In this document: piece after piece, positions 1-8,382 of the stretch | Layout: every line of letters starts with the position of its first letter | Position numbering within the stretch: the first letter of the stretch is position 1 | Program-made: the position numbers and the translations under genes | The notes under the pieces: generated by a model | What the model was told of the DNA's origin: nothing | What the model saw: only the letters and a program-made list of their open reading frames with translations | The model's database searches: none | Origin: Negativicutes bacterium | Lineage (GTDB): Bacteria; Bacillota_C; Negativicutes; Acidaminococcales; Acidaminococcaceae | Assembly (NCBI GenBank): GCA_009930275.1 | Contig: RZYP01000080.1 | Location: 1-8,382 of the forward strand | Direction: 5' to 3' | Length of the DNA stretch: 8,382 bases

Positions 1-1848
1 TTCAAGATGGATCAGGAGCGTTTCCCACGACGCGACTCCTCGGTGCCCTCCGACCGCTATTACGACGATTTCGACCTCCGGTTCGATTACCAGGGCAGCG
101 AAAAGAAGGAGCCGCTTCTGCACTACTACTCGCTGCGTGGCGACTCACCGCAATATATCCAAAGCGATATCTACAGCGGACGGCTTAAACCCACCCGACA
201 GGGTGAGGAAGGGTACCAACAGATACGTGACTATTTCCGAAAGCTGTTGCGGGAGAGGGCGAGCGAGAATCCGTTGGATGTGATCACCGCCTATACCGGT
301 GAGGGCTCCTTTTCCAACAGCATGACCGCCTGGCGTGATCAAGGCATGGTGATGAGGGAGCAGTTCACGGCTGCCTTCCGTAACAAAAACTCGGTGAAGT
401 CCCTTCTCTTCAGCATGCATCCTTACATGAAAGAGCTGGTGACAGCGGAACTGAGAAGAGAGGAGATGGATCTGATGCTGTTCCATGAGCATGGTACCCC
501 CGACAGGCAGTATCTCACCTCATTGCCCCACAGCAAGGGAACGGTAGAACAGCGTGAAGCCGGGCGCCGCCTTTTCCGGCAGGCACTCCGCAGAACCGAC
601 GATACGGAGAAGAGGGAAAGCCTGAAGAGAGCATGGATGGATCATTATCAGATCGACTCACTCTGGTTCGCCGGTGTTGAGACACCGGAACAACTGGAAC
701 AGGACTCGCTCGTGGATCTTCGTACCGGCATCATCCTGGAGGATCTGCCACTGATTGCGCCCAATGCCCGGATGGTGATCTTTGACGCCTGCTACAACGG
801 TGACTTCCGGGAGGATCGCTACATCGCCGGTGAGTATATCTTTGCTGGTGGCAAAACGGTCGTAACCTTTGCCAACAGTGTCAACGTACTGCAGGACAAG
901 AGCTCCACCGATCTGCTGGGGCTGCTGGGTCTTGGCTTCCGCGTGGGTGAGTGGGCCCGTGAGATCAATATCCTGGAGTCGCACATCATTGGCGACCCCA
1001 CCTTCCGTTTTGCAGGCAAAACAGCCTCCCGGGTGGAGCTCAGCTCCGCAGACCAGGCGTACTGGCTGTCACTATATGAGCAGGAGACACAACCCGACCT
1101 GAAAGGGCTGGCACTGCACAAGTTATTTGATCTCGGATATCAACAGATGCCGGAGTTGCTCACAACCGCCTACAATGAATCACCCTGTTACACTGTGCGT
1201 TTGCAGGCATTTCTCCTGTTGCAACACTACGGGGGAGATCATTTTGCAAAGCTCCTGCAACGCTCCGTGCGTGATCCCTATGAGTTTATCCGCCGCAAAT
1301 CTGTATATGCCATGGGTGCTGTCGGTCACGACCATTTCATCCCAACGCTTGCCACTGTCTACCTGAACGATCACCTCGATGAACGGGTTCATTTCAATGT
1401 CACCTTCACCTTCGACAGGATGGATTTCAACCTGATGGAGGAGGAGATCAGGAGACAGTTGGATCAGAATCAATCCTACCCCGACCCGGAAAGTGTGTGG
1501 CGTGATTTCAAAAATGTGATCGATTCCCGTAAACGGATCACGGCAATGGCAGATGATGTCACCGTTAAGGATAAACCGCTAAAGGCGAGGCTCTCCGCTA
1601 CTAGAATGTTGCGTAACAACACCTACCACAAGCAGGTGGATGATTATCTTCGCGTAGTTGCCGATGCGCAGGAGGAGCTCTCACTACGTATCGCGCTTGC
1701 CGAGGCAATGGGATGGTTTACCCATTCCTGCCGCAGAGAGGAGATCGTGACATCCCTCAGGGAGGTAGCTGCCATGGAGCAGGCTCCTCAGCAGCTGAGC
1801 AATGAGCTGGAGAAGAGCATTGCAAGAATTGAGCATTTTATGCGATAG
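1..1848 (+). CDS. Gingipain-like (C25, clan CD) cysteine peptidase with HEAT-like C-terminal region, 5'-partial
   Basis: The reading frame is open from base 1. The codons before the ATG at position 7 encode Phe-Lys, which aligns with Phe120-Lys121 of the downstream paralogue, so the true start lies outside the window and about 119 residues (signal peptide and first strands) are missing. Numbered from the ATG at 7, the caspase/gingipain signature is visible: a hydrophobic stretch then HEHG (His160-Gly163), and a hydrophobic stretch then DACYNG with candidate nucleophile Cys262. IIGDPTFRF (about 327-335) follows, matching the conserved G-D-P-T segment that closes C25 domains. Residues about 345-613 are helical with HEAT-like repeat character (for example DPYEFIRRKSVYAMG and the LAEAMGWF segment). 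Family knowledge suggests cysteine endopeptidase activity in the envelope; substrate unknown. It ends 2 bp before the next gene, so the two are almost certainly cotranscribed. Peptidase-fold assignment is fairly secure; catalytic activity is inferred. Confidence 0.8.
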   Translation, partial: FKMDQERFPRRDSSVPSDRYYDDFDLRFDYQGSEKKEPLLHYYSLRGDSPQYIQSDIYSGRLKPTRQGEEGYQQIRDYFRKLLRERASENPLDVITAYTGEGSFSNSMTAWRDQGMVMREQFTAAFRNKNSVKSLLFSMHPYMKELVTAELRREEMDLMLFHEHGTPDRQYLTSLPHSKGTVEQREAGRRLFRQALRRTDDTEKRESLKRAWMDHYQIDSLWFAGVETPEQLEQDSLVDLRTGIILEDLPLIAPNARMVIFDACYNGDFREDRYIAGEYIFAGGKTVVTFANSVNVLQDKSSTDLLGLLGLGFRVGEWAREINILESHIIGDPTFRFAGKTASRVELSSADQAYWLSLYEQETQPDLKGLALHKLFDLGYQQMPELLTTAYNESPCYTVRLQAFLLLQHYGGDHFAKLLQRSVRDPYEFIRRKSVYAMGAVGHDHFIPTLATVYLNDHLDERVHFNVTFTFDRMDFNLMEEEIRRQLDQNQSYPDPESVWRDFKNVIDSRKRITAMADDVTVKDKPLKARLSATRMLRNNTYHKQVDDYLRVVADAQEELSLRIALAEAMGWFTHSCRREEIVTSLREVAAMEQAPQQLSNELEKSIARIEHFMR

Positions 1849-1850
1849 AT

Positions 1851-4103
1851 ATGATTCAGATGAATAGAATTAAAACCTTACTGTTGGGTTTCTTGGTCTC
1901 CTCCTTTTTTACACTGGCGGCGGCAGAGCGTATCATTCCCGAAAACGGCAGATTCGACACCCGCTTTCTGATCGTGATAGACAGCAAAAGCTTTGAAGAG
2001 GCAACAGAAGAGGTACTGGCCTACAAGGCGATACTAGAGGAACAGGGACTGGGAGCTGTTGTGTTGATCGGTGATTGGGACAACCCGGAAGCATTAAGAG
2101 AAGAGATACGGAAGATCCACCGCCGGAAGCCGGTGATGGAGGGTGCCGTCTTTATCGGTGATATCCCCGTAGTGCGTCTGCGCAACTTCCAGCATGCCAC
2201 CACCGCCTTCAAGATGAACGAGAAGGCCTTCCCCATCGAGGAGTCATCCGTTACCAGTGATCGTTTCTACGATGACCTTGACCTGGTGTTCCGCTTCCAC
2301 AGCGTGGATGAGAAAAACCCACGTCATTTCTATTATGAGCTGACGGAGTGTTCTCCTCAGGTGATAGAGAGTGATTATTACTCTGCCCGGATGCTGCCTC
2401 CCTCCGATATGGGGGAAAATGTGCATGAGCTGCTCAGGAGATATCTCCGCAAGGTAGTGAAGGCACACAGGGAGGTCAACTATGCCGATAACATCAGGTT
2501 CTTCAACGGTCACGGCTATAACTCCGACTGTCTCACAGCCTGGCAGAACCAGCAGTTCGCCATCAGGGAGCAGTTCACGGAAGCATTCCGGACGGCCGAT
2601 GGCAATGCTTTTTATAATTTCCGGCAGGATCCATTCATGAAGTACCGCCTCTTTGAGCGGCTACAGGCACCCGGCACCGACCTTTTTGTCTTCCATGAGC
2701 ATGGCGCCTTCGACACCCAGTATATCAACGGAGAGTATCCCGCACCCAATCAGCTGGGCTACAACCGCGAAGGGGCGCTTGGACCCATGGAACTGTTTGC
2801 CGTAGGCCTGCGGAACAGCTATCGACGTTACAGTGCTGAGAGAAGGGAGGCTTATGTAGAAAAAATGATCAGTGATCATGCTCTTCTACCCGGTTTTTTT
2901 GACTCGTTACGAATCGACAGCACACGGGCGAGCGACTCGCTGATGGCTGCAGACATCAACATCGTGCTTTCCGATCTGCGGGGACTGCGCCCGCAACCGC
3001 GCATCACCATCCTGGATGCCTGTTACAACGGTTCTTTCCATCAGCCTGGTTATGTGGCCGGCTATCATATCTTCGCCGATGGCAACACGGTGGTGGCACA
3101 AGGCAACAGCGTCAATGTGCTGCAGGATAAATGGTCGATGGAGCTGATAGGCATGCTTGCCGAGGGAGCCCGCATCGGTTTCTGGCAGAAAGAGATCCAG
3201 ACACTTGAGTCTCATCTTATCGGCGATCCCACATACCGTCTCACTCCCGGCAGAGCCGCCAACAACCGTGCCGCTGACGCAACAAAACTCAACCGTGATC
3301 TGGCACTGAACCGTCACAAGAGAAAGGTCTGGTTCTCCTATCTGGAGAGCGACAATCCCAATCTGCAATCCATCGCCCTGAAGATGCTCTCCCATCATCC
3401 CCCGAAAGCGTATCCCGAACTGCTGCTCCGTACGCTAAACGAGAGCCCTTATTACAGTGTGCGGATGCAGGCACTGCAACGGATCCTCTACTCTGCCGAC
3501 AACTATCTGACTGAAGCCCTGTTGTTAGCGCTGGATGACCCCTATGAACTGATTCGCCGTAATGGTGCCCGTTTTGCCGGCTATAATGGTGATGAACAAC
3601 TGATCGCTCAACTGGTGGAGACAGTGCTATTCTCCGATGAGAGCCAGCGGGTACAATATGCCGCACAGGGTTCATTGCCGATGTTCAGCATGGAGATGAT
3701 CCGGGAGGAGATCACTCGTCAGACCAATGGTTCCAGCCTGCTGAAGTCAGAAGAAGCAGCCGGGGAGGTGATATCCTATTTTGAGAGTCAGGAGAAACGA
3801 TACGGCCGATACCTGAATGTGATGCAGGATACAACTGCGGAGCCAGGGGAAAGGATCTCAGCCCTCCGTTTCCTGCGTAACTACAACAATCACCGGCAGG
3901 TGCCAGCCCTCCTGACGATCCTGAAAGACCAGGGCGATGACTCGGAAGTGAGGGTGGTGCTGGCCGAGGCGCTGGGCTGGTTTCGCTGGAGCGTGCAAAA
4001 GGAGACAATCGTTGAAGCGTTGAAGGCAGTCCGGAAAGAGAAGCAGACCTCGCAAGAACTGCGTGACGAGATCGATCAATCGCTGATCAGGTTACAGTTC
4101 TGA
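1851..4103 (+). CDS. Secreted gingipain-like (C25, clan CD) cysteine peptidase with HEAT-like C-terminal region
   Basis: Complete 750-residue paralogue of the preceding gene. The N-terminus (basic NRIK, then LLLGFLVSSFFTLAAA) is a classical signal peptide with probable cleavage after about residue 25. A second in-frame ATG at 1860 (Met4) would give an equally good signal peptide, and no strong ribosome site decides between them. After an N-terminal alpha/beta segment (about 35-115, with GAVFIGDIPVV), the catalytic signature is FHEHG (His284-Gly285) and ITILDACYNG (Cys391), ending in LESHLIGDPTYRL (about 452-464). Residues about 485-750 are HEAT-like helical repeats. No type IX secretion C-terminal domain is seen, since the protein ends within the helical repeats, so a periplasmic or envelope location is inferred. 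An extra His-Gly (FFNGHGYN, His221) is not kept in the paralogue, so HEHG is the better catalytic candidate. Its 2-bp spacing from the upstream gene implies translational coupling in one operon. Substrate unknown; the solenoid may bind substrate or regulate the peptidase. Confidence 0.84.
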   Translation: MIQMNRIKTLLLGFLVSSFFTLAAAERIIPENGRFDTRFLIVIDSKSFEEATEEVLAYKAILEEQGLGAVVLIGDWDNPEALREEIRKIHRRKPVMEGAVFIGDIPVVRLRNFQHATTAFKMNEKAFPIEESSVTSDRFYDDLDLVFRFHSVDEKNPRHFYYELTECSPQVIESDYYSARMLPPSDMGENVHELLRRYLRKVVKAHREVNYADNIRFFNGHGYNSDCLTAWQNQQFAIREQFTEAFRTADGNAFYNFRQDPFMKYRLFERLQAPGTDLFVFHEHGAFDTQYINGEYPAPNQLGYNREGALGPMELFAVGLRNSYRRYSAERREAYVEKMISDHALLPGFFDSLRIDSTRASDSLMAADINIVLSDLRGLRPQPRITILDACYNGSFHQPGYVAGYHIFADGNTVVAQGNSVNVLQDKWSMELIGMLAEGARIGFWQKEIQTLESHLIGDPTYRLTPGRAANNRAADATKLNRDLALNRHKRKVWFSYLESDNPNLQSIALKMLSHHPPKAYPELLLRTLNESPYYSVRMQALQRILYSADNYLTEALLLALDDPYELIRRNGARFAGYNGDEQLIAQLVETVLFSDESQRVQYAAQGSLPMFSMEMIREEITRQTNGSSLLKSEEAAGEVISYFESQEKRYGRYLNVMQDTTAEPGERISALRFLRNYNNHRQVPALLTILKDQGDDSEVRVVLAEALGWFRWSVQKETIVEALKAVRKEKQTSQELRDEIDQSLIRLQF

Positions 4104-4143: not shown

Positions 4144-5244
4144 TCATGCATGATCAGCAAGGTTTACCGGAACAATAAATTCACGGCCAGTGCTAAAATG
4201 AATGAGTCCCAAATGTTGCAACCTTCCAACTATCATGGCAGGATGCGTATTAAACTCTTTGGCATAATTGATGATGTCATCTGGAGATATGTAAGTAGGA
4301 TGTTCTCGCAATAATTTTTCCTCCTGTTCTTTTGAAAATGTGTATTTTTCAGCAAAATCATTGGCTTGTGCTTCATTTTCAGGATCAGCAGCCGCGAAAT
4401 CTATATTTTCGAGTGAGATATATTTTTTACCATGTAAAACAATATGTCCCAACTCATGAAAAAAGGTAAACCAGAATCGGTCATTTTGTTTATACCGAGC
4501 CGTAAGTTGAATAAGCGGATGATCATTTATCCATCGGGTTGAGCCGCTTAAAGGTACTTTTGGTAATTTGGGAGTATACAGTAGAATGACACCGGCTTCT
4601 AAACAAAGATGTTGAAGTTGGCGAAAGAAATCGACAGGATGATCAACCATTAATTGGCGCATTGCCGGGATATTACTCCTTACTTTACAGATATCAAACA
4701 CAGGGGGGGGGACTTTTTTTGCCTGAATTTCTCCTTGTCTCAACCAAGCAGAAATTGCGTGGGGTTCATGCGATTGTTTTAACGAAGTATAAGCTGCAAC
4801 CTTAAGTTCAGACTCAATATAAAGGCTCTCCCATCCCTTGTGAGAAGCTATACCAAAAAAAATCAGCAGATTTTTTGTTTTTTCTTTGATGTCATGTGTT
4901 GCTGGCAACCAGTTAAGTTTTGCCATTTTTGCATAAGGAAATTCTCGAGCCCATGGTTCAGCGTTATCAATAATAATCTGCAATTTCTCTCTGGTTTTAA
5001 ACTCATTGTAACGCTGCTGATATCTCATCCAGAAATTAGCTGGGATTTGAGTGACATTTTCAAATTTAATTGCCATTTCAGGAGTAATTCCGCTACTACC
5101 TTTCAAAATGGCCGTGATTGTTTTTTCAGGTTTATCGGTTCTTAAAGCAAACTCTTTATTGCACATACCCATCTCTTTGAGTTTCTCTTCCAGGATGGCG
5201 CCAGGATGGGGAATTGTTTGTGGAAAATATTGATTGGTTGCCAT
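4144..5244 (-). CDS. higA: HigA-type XRE antitoxin fused to an ImmA/IrrE-like zinc metallopeptidase domain
   Basis: 366 residues, much longer than a classical HigA (about 100). Residues about 8-75 match the HigA-type helix-turn-helix: PHPGAILEEKLKEMG, then NKEFALRTDKPEKTITAILKG, then TPEMAIKFENVTQIPANFWMR. The C-terminal half carries FTFFHELGHIVLHGK, an HExxH zinc site (His263, Glu264, His267), followed by ExxANxFA with Glu291 as probable third ligand. This is the ImmA/IrrE (M78-like) pattern. The expected role is to bind the operon operator and neutralise the upstream toxin; the peptidase half may make that control switchable by proteolysis (inference). It starts 3 bp after the toxin stop codon, the toxin-first order typical of higBA. 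A7 and C9 homopolymers fall at Lys176-Pro181, between the two domains; the frame is intact here. It converges on the peptidase operon with a 40-bp gap. The gene symbol is by family resemblance. Confidence 0.85.
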   Translation of the reverse strand: MATNQYFPQTIPHPGAILEEKLKEMGMCNKEFALRTDKPEKTITAILKGSSGITPEMAIKFENVTQIPANFWMRYQQRYNEFKTREKLQIIIDNAEPWAREFPYAKMAKLNWLPATHDIKEKTKNLLIFFGIASHKGWESLYIESELKVAAYTSLKQSHEPHAISAWLRQGEIQAKKVPPPVFDICKVRSNIPAMRQLMVDHPVDFFRQLQHLCLEAGVILLYTPKLPKVPLSGSTRWINDHPLIQLTARYKQNDRFWFTFFHELGHIVLHGKKYISLENIDFAAADPENEAQANDFAEKYTFSKEQEEKLLREHPTYISPDDIINYAKEFNTHPAMIVGRLQHLGLIHFSTGREFIVPVNLADHA

Positions 5245-5247
5245 TGT

Positions 5248-5589
5248 TTATCTCTCTTTGTGATAGTTTATGATTTCAATAATCTCAACTGCCTTAATTT
5301 CAGTCCAGTTATATTTGCCTGAATTGTCAGTAGGTATTGGTTTCTTCTGGGGCTCAAAAATTAAACGGTAAGGTTGATCCAGGTCGCATGCCCATTGCCC
5401 TTTTCTATCTCCTGTCAGTTCATGCCAATTCCCAGGTTGATGTCGTAATTCTTCCAGAGTATCAGCGACAGCAATCGCGGTGAGTCGTAACTTGATTTTT
5501 GCAAACCTTATTTTTCCATACGTCTTGAGTGCTGTGCGATCGTCATTCACACACTTTTTCATTATTCTATCTGCAAAGATAATATCCAT
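5248..5589 (-). CDS. higB: HigB-like toxin (RelE/ParE superfamily, plasmid maintenance killer protein)
   Basis: 113 residues. The core PGNWHELTGDRKGQWACDL followed by QPYRLIFEP (about 52-80) is the characteristic HigB/killer-protein segment. The short hydrophobic C-terminal strand ending in INYHKER also fits the family, where a terminal Tyr-His is common. HigB toxins are ribosome-dependent mRNA endonucleases; that activity is inferred here. Compared with typical members of about 90-100 residues, there is a polar insertion at about 81-97 (QKKPIPTDNSGKYNWTE) between the last two strands. The gene lies directly upstream of the HigA-type antitoxin with 3 bp between them, and a perfect inverted repeat sits 18-40 bp upstream of its ATG. 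The alternative ATG at Met10 would remove part of the first strand, so the first ATG is preferred. Confidence 0.85.
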   Translation of the reverse strand: MDIIFADRIMKKCVNDDRTALKTYGKIRFAKIKLRLTAIAVADTLEELRHQPGNWHELTGDRKGQWACDLDQPYRLIFEPQKKPIPTDNSGKYNWTEIKAVEIIEIINYHKER

Positions 5590-5606
5590 TTAAGTAAGAA
5601 ACAATT

Positions 5607-5629
5607 TAATTTACACTTAATGTAAATTA
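5607..5629. promoter_or_regulatory. Candidate operator of the higBA operon (9-bp perfect inverted repeat)
   Basis: The arms taatttaca (5607-5615) and tgtaaatta (5621-5629) are perfect reverse complements around a 5-bp spacer, cttaa. The element ends 18 bp upstream of the toxin ATG, where HigA-type antitoxins usually bind to repress their own operon. On the - strand the area also contains TATAAT-like and TAnnTTTG-like (one mismatch) sequences, so a promoter overlapping the repeat is plausible, but no -33 element was convincing. The arms are AT-only except for one C/G pair, and the repeat is not followed by a T-run in either direction, so an operator is favoured over a terminator. Confidence 0.55.
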
Positions 5630-5654
5630 TAAATTTATCGGCGCGCATTGTTTG

Positions 5655-7856
5655 TCATAAAACATCCAATTCCAATTGATTTTTTATCAAACAATAGTAT
5701 AATCCTTTTTTCTTTGTTAAACTAGAATGTGTCCCTATTTCTGCTATTTTTCCTTGATCCAATACAATTATATTCTCGGCATTTTTTACTGTACTTAAAC
5801 GATGGGCAACCACAAAAACAGTCCTATTTTTAAAAAAAGTCTGTAAACGTTCTAATATAACTTTTTCATTATTAGAATCTAAGGAATTTGTAGCTTCATC
5901 TAAAAATACATATTGAGGGTTCTTGTATATGGCGCGGGCAATTAAGATACGTTGACGTTGTCCCGCACTTATCCCTTTTCCCTCCATACCAATCTGAGTT
6001 TTATATCCCTCAGGCTGTGACTTTATAAAATTCTCAATATTAGAAACATGAGAGGAATACTGAAGACGTCTAAAATCAATTTCCTCTCCCTTTAAATTTA
6101 TATTATTCTCTATAGTATCTGAAAAAACATAACTCTCCTGCATAACAACACCACATTTTTCCCTCCATGAACTGATATTATATGCATCCAGTTTTTTTCC
6201 AGCCAATAGTATCTCTCCCTCTTGTGGACTATAATAACCTAATAACAGTTTTAGTATTGTCGTTTTTCCGCTGCCACTTGTCCCAACAAGTGCATTTATC
6301 TTGCCGGGTTTAATTGTAAAATTTACTTTATCAAGAACTTTCTCTGATTCTGTACCTCCATATTGAAAAGAAACGTCTTTAAAAACAATCTCTCCAACGG
6401 GTGGAATTTTTTCAATCTTATCAGAATTCAAAGGTATTTCATCTTCTTTATTATAGATTTCACCCATACGTTCCAAACTGATATGGGCATCCTGCATACT
6501 TTGTACAAAACTAATGAATTGTTTTAAAGGAGCATTTAACTGTCCTATCACATATTGCATCGCCATCATCATACCCAATGTCATATTTCCTCCCACGACC
6601 AATCTGGCAGCCCAATAAGAAATTACCAGATTTTTAATCTGGTCAAAAAATATACCGCCCACACCTTGTATTTGTTCCAATATCTTCGATTTAATATTTA
6701 TTTGATAAATATTCATTTGTATTTTCTTCCAATCATGCAGTTTGCTTTTTTCACAATTGTTCAATTTAATATCCTGCATACCTGATATCAATTGGATCAT
6801 ATTACTCTGATTAGAAGATAAAACCTGAAAGCGAATTGCATCAAGTTTCTTTCGTTTTGAAAGAAATAAGAAGATCCAAAGAACATAAATTATACTCCCC
6901 AATAAGAAAAGGTATAGGATTTCTTTATTATAGCCGGCCATGACAATTGAATAAACAATAAATGTAATACCTGCAATCAAAATACTAATCAATGAACCTG
7001 TTAAGAATGATTGAATACGGGAATTATCGGCCATGCGTTGCATAATATCTCCTATTTTATTGGAATCAAAAAAGGAAAGAGGCAGTCTTGTTAATTTGGC
7101 TAAAAAATCAAAAATAAAGGATATATTCATCTTCATTGTGATGTGTAGCATTAACCATGAGCGTAACATTTCATTGCCAAATTGTCCAATTGTCAACAAT
7201 AATTGAGCAATTAACAATAGAAATATTAAATGCAGGTCTTCATTTTTTATACCTTTATCCACTACAGCTTGGGTGAGGAAAGGGAAAATTAAACTAATAA
7301 GACTCCCAATTAACATTGTTAAAATAAACTTGAATAAGGATTTTTTAAATGGTATCAGATAACGAAATAAATCCGTCCAAGTAAGAGAAGTATCTTTTTC
7401 GGAGACGATGTTTTTAAATGTTTGCGTAGGAGAAAAAGATAACGCAAATCCTTTATGAGTATAAGTTTTTTGCAGCCAGTGATTTAAAAATAAATCTTTA
7501 TTGTATGTTATCAACCCACTGCCCGGATCTGCGACTAAGACTTTTTCTTCCTTTGTTCGACGGTTTTGTTTGATTTTATAAACAACAACAAAGTGATTAT
7601 TATTCCAGTGAATAATGCAAGGTTTGTTTATTTGTTTAAGTTGTTCCCAATCTAATTCTAATGCATAAGTTTCCAGTCCTATATTTTCTGCAGCCTGCTT
7701 TATTTCTAAAAATGATGTGCCATTATGGGATACAAATGTTTTTTTTCGCATTGTTTCAGCAGTGAAATATTTCCCATAATACTTAGAAATCATTCGCAAG
7801 CATGAAGATCCACATTCAGATTTGTCTAATTGTTTATAGAACGGAAACTTATGCAT
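5655..7856 (-). CDS. Peptidase-containing ABC transporter (PCAT), C39 double-glycine peptidase/exporter
   Basis: 733 residues from the ATG. An in-frame GTG one codon earlier (7857-7859) is an alternative start; a gaaaag run just upstream fits the ATG only loosely. Domain order is the full PCAT plan. The N-terminal C39 peptidase (about 1-140) has QLDKSECGSSCL with oxyanion Gln9 and nucleophile Cys15, NNNHFVVVY with His88, and VADPGSG with Asp110. The membrane domain has hydrophobic segments near 174-196, 208-226, 285-305, 312-333 and 400-420. The nucleotide-binding domain has Walker A GTSGSGKTT (525-533), Q-loop VMQESYVF, signature ISAGQRQR (629-636, Ala where LSGGQ has Gly), Walker B YVFLDEAT (catalytic Glu654) and H-loop VVAHRLST (His685). 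It should cleave a leader after Gly-Gly and export the released peptide across the inner membrane. The gene directly upstream encodes such a leader peptide. It is the last gene of its operon here, and no HlyD-type adaptor is in the window. Confidence 0.93.
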   Translation of the reverse strand: MHKFPFYKQLDKSECGSSCLRMISKYYGKYFTAETMRKKTFVSHNGTSFLEIKQAAENIGLETYALELDWEQLKQINKPCIIHWNNNHFVVVYKIKQNRRTKEEKVLVADPGSGLITYNKDLFLNHWLQKTYTHKGFALSFSPTQTFKNIVSEKDTSLTWTDLFRYLIPFKKSLFKFILTMLIGSLISLIFPFLTQAVVDKGIKNEDLHLIFLLLIAQLLLTIGQFGNEMLRSWLMLHITMKMNISFIFDFLAKLTRLPLSFFDSNKIGDIMQRMADNSRIQSFLTGSLISILIAGITFIVYSIVMAGYNKEILYLFLLGSIIYVLWIFLFLSKRKKLDAIRFQVLSSNQSNMIQLISGMQDIKLNNCEKSKLHDWKKIQMNIYQINIKSKILEQIQGVGGIFFDQIKNLVISYWAARLVVGGNMTLGMMMAMQYVIGQLNAPLKQFISFVQSMQDAHISLERMGEIYNKEDEIPLNSDKIEKIPPVGEIVFKDVSFQYGGTESEKVLDKVNFTIKPGKINALVGTSGSGKTTILKLLLGYYSPQEGEILLAGKKLDAYNISSWREKCGVVMQESYVFSDTIENNINLKGEEIDFRRLQYSSHVSNIENFIKSQPEGYKTQIGMEGKGISAGQRQRILIARAIYKNPQYVFLDEATNSLDSNNEKVILERLQTFFKNRTVFVVAHRLSTVKNAENIIVLDQGKIAEIGTHSSLTKKKGLYYCLIKNQLELDVL

Positions 7857-7880
7857 CACTTTTCAAAAGAAAAGAATCAC

Positions 7881-8099
7881 TCAATTTTCTTCAGGCAGTG
7901 TTCCTGTTGAACCACAATTAGGACAAAGATATGTATACGTTGGACCTGCTTGGATATCATCATCGGTTAAGCCGTGTCCACACATAGGACAAAAATTAAT
8001 CATTTTGTTTACATGAATGACTTCTCCTCCACACACATGTTTCATCCTATCTACTGATAGATGTGTAAATTGTCGCATTTTTGTTACATTGTTTTCCAT
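7881..8099 (-). CDS. Double-glycine leader peptide precursor with zinc-ribbon-like (two CPxCG) core
   Basis: 72 residues. Residues 14-25 read LSVDRMKHVCGG, matching the classical double-glycine leader (Leu-12, Ser-11, Met-7, Val-4, Gly-2, Gly-1); only position -8 is Arg instead of the usual Glu. Cleavage after Gly25 would release a 47-residue acidic core. The core holds CPMCG (Cys37, Cys40) and CPNCG (Cys59, Cys62), spaced by 18 residues as in a four-cysteine zinc ribbon; two disulfides are an alternative after export. The gene ends 21-24 bp before the C39 peptidase/ABC transporter, which supplies exactly the processing activity this leader calls for, so the two most likely form one operon. 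The mature role is unknown: bacteriocin, signalling peptide, metal-binding peptide and RiPP substrate are all possible, and no modification enzyme is visible nearby. An alternative reading is an ordinary small zinc-ribbon protein whose leader match is coincidental, but the match plus its neighbour makes that less likely. Confidence 0.82.
   Translation of the reverse strand: MENNVTKMRQFTHLSVDRMKHVCGGEVIHVNKMINFCPMCGHGLTDDDIQAGPTYTYLCPNCGSTGTLPEEN
8025..8030 (-). other. Predicted Gly-Gly processing site of the exported peptide
   Basis: These six bases encode Gly24-Gly25 of the precursor. By the established C39 rule the transporter's peptidase cuts after the second glycine, leaving Glu26 as the N-terminus of the mature peptide. 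The prediction rests on the leader consensus and on the adjacent transporter. Confidence 0.7.
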
Positions 8100-8168
8100 A
8101 CAATTTGATTTTTTAATTATGCCTACTCTATTTGTTTTATCGTTTTCAGCTTCCCGACCTTGGTTATT
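8100..8168 (-). other. 69-bp spacer upstream of the peptide/transporter operon
   Basis: This AT-rich gap separates the end of the beta-barrel gene from the precursor ATG on the same strand. No TAnnTTTG element of the Bacteroidota housekeeping promoter and no hairpin with a T-run could be found. The precursor is preceded by an A-rich stretch (taattaaaaaatc on the - strand), common ahead of starts in this phylum. The operon promoter may be atypical, or lie inside the end of the beta-barrel gene. Confidence 0.3.
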
Positions 8169-8382
8169 TTAATTTTCACTGCTGATGCGTCCTTGTTCTG
8201 ATCTGTTTCCGGTAGAGGTACGCCGTATTTTTGCGGAACGGTTCCCCCAGTTGAAGATGTAGCTGACTCTTGCCATCACGGTAAAGGTGCTGGAGAGACC
8301 TCTCTGTTTTTGAGAATAATCATTGAAGAAAGAATCGGAGCGTTGACCACCTATCATATTAAAAATATCCCCAAACATAAGC
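8169..8382 (-). CDS. C-terminal end of a probable outer-membrane beta-barrel (TonB-receptor-like) protein, 5'-partial
   Basis: The frame is open to the right window edge (the codon before the apparent ATG at 8376-8378 encodes Leu), so only the last 70 codons are seen and that ATG is internal. The pattern DIFNM, a polar loop of about 25 residues, then a strand STFTVMARVSYIFNWG and a basic tail resembles the end of the OMP_b-brl_3-type (PF14905-like) outer-membrane proteins of Bacteroidota, which often show D-[IL]-F-N before the last strand pair. A tail of about 24 polar residues follows the final aromatic-rich strand, so the chain does not end on the terminal aromatic usual for barrels; basic tails are seen in this group. 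The assignment rests on a short segment. Confidence 0.5.
   Translation of the reverse strand, partial: LMFGDIFNMIGGQRSDSFFNDYSQKQRGLSSTFTVMARVSYIFNWGNRSAKIRRTSTGNRSEQGRISSEN

Follow-up and report, generated by a model that had tools for sequence, protein, structure and literature searches.

In the 8,382-nucleotide stretch of contig RZYP01000080.1 analysed here (assembly GCA_009930275.1, labelled as a Negativicutes bacterium; hereafter the window), a 72-residue open reading frame (ORF) is probably the precursor of a secreted, acidic, four-cysteine mini-protein of 47 residues, which would leave the cell through the peptidase-containing ATP-binding cassette (ABC) transporter (PCAT) encoded next to it. 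Four features seen in the sequence point this way: a double-glycine (GG) leader, two cysteine knuckles in the core, an operon-like gene order, and a leader that is unchanged in the one close relative, P0002, while the core varies. The peptide is probably PCAT cargo and a variant of the GG-leader peptides of Bacteroidota.

A double-glycine leader, a two-knuckle core and an adjacent exporter

The features of the locus, all on the minus strand, are listed below.

8099-7881: peptide precursor gene, 72 amino acids (aa); from the ORF listing, the sequence and comparison with P0002
8099-8025, 8024-7884 and 7883-7881: its leader (residues 1-25), core (residues 26-72) and stop codon
8025..8099: double-glycine leader LSVDRMKHVCGG, ending at Gly25, with L-12, M-7, V-4, C-3, G-2 and G-1; from the sequence
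7911..7991: core cysteine knuckles CPMCG (residues 37-41) and CPNCG (residues 59-63); from the sequence
5655..7859: C39-peptidase ABC exporter (PCAT), 734 aa if started at GTG, 733 aa if started at the ATG at 7856; from domain matches and motifs
8169..8381: 3' end of a gene cut by the window edge, probably for an outer-membrane beta-barrel protein; from a weak match to an ORF of locus L058

The first-pass annotation had placed at 7881-8099 an ORF with a 47-residue core and two CPxCG knuckles. Comparison at the sequence level confirmed this as a real gene and assigned it to the minus strand, which had not been given. The leader is 25 aa long from the listed start and 18 aa long if translation begins at Met8. 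Hydrophobic residues at -12, -7 and -4 (L, M, V) and glycines at -2 and -1 are all present, as is the pattern in PCAT substrates; the three hydrophobic positions are those that engage the protease groove of LahT150 in its co-crystal (PMC6363468) and that of PCAT1 (PMC6959990). The leader had been called nearly perfect, which these positions support but which overstates the case: neither the curated leader model TIGR01847 (bacteriocin_sig) nor TIGR04149 (model cut-off 25 bits) gave a listed match to the window peptide at E<=1, with filters that drop most matches above about 0.1. In the core, four cysteines in 47 aa are spaced C-x2-C-x18-C-x2-C, with an isoelectric point (pI) of 4.3, a charge of -5.0 and a grand average of hydropathy of -0.26.

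The exporter gene begins 21 bp downstream of the peptide gene on the same strand. Its product carries PF03412 (E 5.5e-31), PF00664 (1.1e-25) and PF00005 (1.9e-31), and its peptidase and ATPase motifs are intact (ECGSSC, NHFVVV, DPGSG, GTSGSGKTT, SAGQ and FLDEAT); the catalytic residues are presumably those within these motifs. It aligns along nearly its whole length with PCAT1 (4ry2, E 2.5e-92) and ComA (8hf4, 1e-84). The barrel-like gene ends 69 bp upstream of the peptide gene, also on the same strand, so that the order is operon-like: barrel-like gene end, peptide, PCAT. The barrel assignment comes from a weak similarity of this gene end to the last part of an 800-aa ORF in L058 (28 aa at 32% identity, E 0.062); Pfam gave nothing above cut-off for the 8169-8381 product. 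Taken together, export of the core is likely.

An ORF combining such a leader with one CPxC arose in 0/3000 first-order Markov simulations of 5601-8382, against 69/3000 for a leader-like ORF alone. A survey of 129 sequences (the window and 128 loci, some overlapping and partly picked by earlier matches) covered 5675 ORFs between 40 and 160 aa long. A leader was present in 67, and a leader with at least one CPxC in nine rows, representing five distinct sequences; the window peptide was the single case with two CPxC.

Among 5.8 billion proteins, P0002 is the one close relative, 83% identical over 72 aa and present on 20 contigs. The conservation of leader and cysteines that the first-pass annotation had asked about holds here: the leader is identical at 25/25 positions and all four cysteines are kept. 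None of the 12 substitutions between the window peptide (P0001) and P0002 falls in the 25-residue leader and all 12 fall in the 47-residue core (p=0.0034), and the P0002 core has a pI of 4.1. A further two-knuckle peptide was not found in the protein searches (2 matches; 16/197 candidates; 8/242 candidates). Searches with the peptide gave 26 pattern-fitting stretches in genome contigs and four in viral contigs, none confirmed, no match in plasmids, and four weak matches in phages, none spanning 80%.

Relatives at exporter loci

A search for the exporter in GTDB genomes yielded 60 loci, 58 with titles naming a Bacteroidota group, one as a 'Bacillota' metagenome-assembled genome and one as a 'bacterium'. 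A GG-leader ORF matching a strict pattern lies within 3.5 kb of the exporter in 13 of the 60. Plausible precursors, many of them cysteine-rich, are scattered across these loci, mixed with spurious ORFs. Whole-genome scans gave strong matches in 2/12 genomes and matches at E<=1 in 7/12. In the family of genome G002, 7/200 genomes matched at E<=0.01, with GG-CPxC peptides in G001 and G002; for the other five, ORFs were inspected in L072 and L075 only, L073, L074 and L076 being left out as their matches lie inside frames of 604-975 aa. In the family of G009, 6/398 genomes matched, with GG peptides in L087, L089, L091 and L092 and none seen in L088 and L090. A sample of an order gave 0/344 in a scan without a positive control.

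Two cassettes are comparable to the window order. In L092, an OMP_b-brl_3 barrel (E 6.7e-10) is followed by a GG peptide with CICP...CSC and a C39 exporter, whose ORF stops at 309 aa, close to where the contig ends. In L058:201-3370 (+), the 800-aa barrel-like ORF runs to 2603; 85 bp on, from 2689, come three GG peptides that are almost the same as one another and have two cysteines each. Other cargos of this exporter type occur in L095 and L054. L095:5011-12974 holds three GG peptides with a GLPGLI-like gene behind each (at 4, -8 and 4 bp; the first partner, the one tested, matches Porph_ging), and the same locus has HlyD, VKOR, a large ORF weakly matching a TonB plug and a C39 exporter. The GG peptide of L054 has two cysteines. 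That of L091 has nine, and the part of L091 that was read shows no exporter. A further exporter relative, G501:C5:95891-97945, contains five TAG and two TAA codons in frame and is decayed or recoded.

A diversified set of GG-leader peptides with CPxC occurs in Alistipes, where L006 and L033 encode peptides with GG and then CPYC or CPHC on the same contigs as exporters 51-53% identical to that of the window. A profile search added P0003-P0016, all without a source name. In a 20-row alignment of the window peptide, P0002 and the remainder of the GG-CPxC set (partly redundant, four rows repeating or nearly repeating others), GG is present in 19/20 rows and CPxC with the third cysteine in 20/20. 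The cores of P0003-P0015 have four or five cysteines and that of the short P0016 has three; the pI of all 22 cores measured lies between 4.1 and 6.1.

These Alistipes peptides (L006, L033, L070, L068 and the related P0003-P0016), for which we found no published name, resemble the window peptide in the GG leader, the CPxC soon after it, the mostly four cysteines and the acidic core. They differ in that the second knuckle is split (YxC ... VxC) around a predicted beta-beta-alpha-beta unit (predicted local distance difference test, pLDDT, mostly over 90) and in being paired with a six-bladed propeller gene. The P0003 model has this beta-beta-alpha-beta arrangement with two cysteines on strands and no clear match among solved structures. 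Profile alignment with hhalign gave a probability of 92 over leader and first knuckle, whereas knuckle-preserving shuffles of the core scored at least as well as the real sequence in 919/2000 cases for P0001 and 79/2000 for P0002. Homology between the Alistipes and window cores is not demonstrable from these comparisons.

In L006, L033, L093 and L094, the GG-CPxC peptide is followed by the propeller gene (DUF5128/DUF4934), identified by Pfam for L006 and L070/L093 and by eye for L033 and a cut fragment in L094. Its product could possibly be a partner, receptor or immunity protein. L006 also encodes a C39-VKOR protein, HlyD, a GT10 glycosyltransferase and a LanC-like product (19.8 of 23.2 bits). 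The peptide leader in L094 ends in CG. So does that of L068:180-491 (-), where P0005, nearly identical to it, has GG, so that the cleavage site differs naturally between the two.

Zinc ribbon, disulfides and other readings

The core was proposed to be a zinc-ribbon-like cargo of the exporter. The knuckle pattern and the probable export stand, and the zinc part is less secure. Proline, spacing and the glycine after each CPxC are zinc-knuckle features. Pfam gave 33 weak matches (best 9.4e-05), and most of the 25 listed are named as zinc-binding; no zinc family reached its curated cut-off among the matches listed (25/33 Pfam families; 15/15 NCBIfam), the best by E-value being PF08271 (22.3 of 29 bits) and NF011481 (19.7 of 61). 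The solved folds nearest to the peptide model are largely ribbons, all below significance, and include the RPB9/RPC11 N-terminal ribbon, NrdR and LysW, which share two CxxC knuckles with the window core. We put the chance that the core folds as a Zn(Cys)4 ribbon at about even, and that of two disulfides slightly lower.

On the disulfide account, export would be the same, and the CPxCG knuckles would merely look like a ribbon while the four cysteines pair as proposed for bacteroidetocins; as a complete explanation this is credible, though we would not bet on it. Bacteroidetocins A and B combine a GG leader, a 42-aa core, four cysteines, a PCAT, a thiol oxidoreductase and a redox-dependent gel shift (PMC6671954). 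VKOR proteins occur in the loci of two relatives, L006 (E 4.9e-11; the protein also has a C39 domain) and L095 (1.8e-09), and the similarly ordered cassette of L092 has its four cysteines as CxC...CxC, which is not a ribbon. Set against this, the window genes scanned include no thiol oxidoreductase in a locus cut at 8382, the comparable L054 protein matches Peptidase_C39 and not VKOR, general disulfide machinery is described as absent from Bacteroides (PMC6671954), and the knuckles themselves are of the zinc type. It is improbable, by comparison, that the peptide is a ribosomally synthesized and post-translationally modified peptide of the TIGR04149 type (GG_sam_targ_CFB, precursors modified by radical S-adenosylmethionine, rSAM, enzymes), with cysteines cross-linked to other residues by rSAM or other chemistry. 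Such peptides, at 43 and 28.8 bits against the cut-off of 25, adjoin the exporter relatives L001 (54% identical) and L111 (53%), and in the wider alignment, which is partly redundant, 12/20 rows match TIGR04149 at E<=1 (best 8.4e-07). The window peptide, however, is not among the matches, and no rSAM domain was found among the window genes scanned, again with the locus cut at 8382. Least credible of all is a cytoplasmic zinc-ribbon protein that ends its first 25 residues in GG by chance and stays in the cell. The ribbon pattern agrees with it, as does the name given to P0002 by one source (predicted RNA-binding Zn-ribbon protein, DUF1610 family, translation-related), but an invariant leader on a varying core, the adjacent PCAT, the two Alistipes genomes with a GG-CPxC peptide and an exporter on one contig, and the absence of leader plus CPxC from all 3000 simulations argue otherwise.

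Secretion of a four-cysteine mini-protein through the PCAT remains our preferred reading, and some observations weigh against parts of it. GG-leader ORFs are no denser near the exporter than farther out (5.1 per 100 kb in both). The idea that the peptide always stands beside a C39 gene fails in the wider set, since L093, L094 and L096 carry such peptides and the stretches read for them show no exporter; the genome of L093 and L094 carries two exporters of the same type on other contigs. As to zinc, the VKOR genes in L006 and L095 favour disulfides.

Neighbouring genes

At 4144-5589 (-), the window encodes a HigB-like toxin (PF05015, 9.8e-07) and then a fusion of a HigA-type antitoxin (TIGR02607, 2.7e-15) with an M78 metallopeptidase domain (PF06114, 5.1e-10). 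At 1-4103 (+) lie two tandem proteins with C-terminal HEAT repeats, for which Pfam reports mainly HEAT; their N-terminal parts contain HEHG and DACYNG, which we take to be a caspase-like His/Cys pair. The second has relatives in 10/295 genomes of an order sample, the best (56% identical) in Bacteroidales bacterium CF. Judging from this protein and the exporter relatives, the host is probably a member of the Bacteroidota. G+C content falls at about 4100 from 51-56% to 30-41%, and the toxin-antitoxin and exporter part therefore looks like a separate block, perhaps acquired.

Discussion

The nearest characterised kind to the window peptide, compared by description, is the bacteroidetocins, class IIf bacteriocins of Bacteroidetes with a GG leader, a core of about 42-48 aa that contains two or more cysteines (A and B have four), a peptidase-type ABC transporter in the region and, near most members, a thiol oxidoreductase (PMC6671954). 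The window peptide shares the GG leader, the core length, the four cysteines of A and B and the transporter type. It differs in its leader length (25 aa versus 15-16 aa), in its charge (-5.0 versus +2/+6 in A/B, which are basic killing peptides), in the visible part of its locus, where no thiol oxidoreductase was seen, and in the arrangement of its cysteines as two CPxCG knuckles (PMC6671954). The suggestion of an undescribed family needs qualifying: the group is poorly described, but four-cysteine PCAT cargo is already known in Bacteroidota from the bacteroidetocins.

We envisage that L-12, M-7 and V-4 dock the leader in the groove of the C39 domain encoded next door, that cleavage follows Gly25 and that the core passes the inner membrane through the PCAT. 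Since HlyD occurs in related loci, the outer membrane may be crossed by an HlyD/TolC-type path encoded outside the window. The four cysteines would hold the core in a compact fold. Peptides exported in this manner commonly serve as weapons or signals, but a core patterned like this one is out of the ordinary. There is perhaps an even chance that it acts on or toward close relatives, as a weapon or signal, through a surface protein; the acidic, hydrophilic core favours this over membrane insertion, and the outer-membrane protein BamA, targeted by bacteroidetocins (PMC8546649), is a precedent. A cationic membrane-inserting bacteriocin is unlikely, as this core is acidic and none of the 22 measured has a pI above 6.1.

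An acidic mini-protein with a zinc-ribbon pattern, together with diversified Alistipes CPxC cargos beside propeller-type genes, would broaden the known cargo of these exporters. It would also allow genes left unnamed to be sought by the combination of a GG leader with CPxC, as P0003-P0016 carry no source name and P0002 received a translation-related Zn-ribbon name. A bolder and rather doubtful possibility is that a dedicated PCAT secretes a mini-protein which carries zinc as Zn(Cys)4 once outside the cell, its leader frozen while the ribbon diversifies. If true, an intracellular zinc-ribbon design would now serve outside the cell as a toxin, signal or metal carrier.
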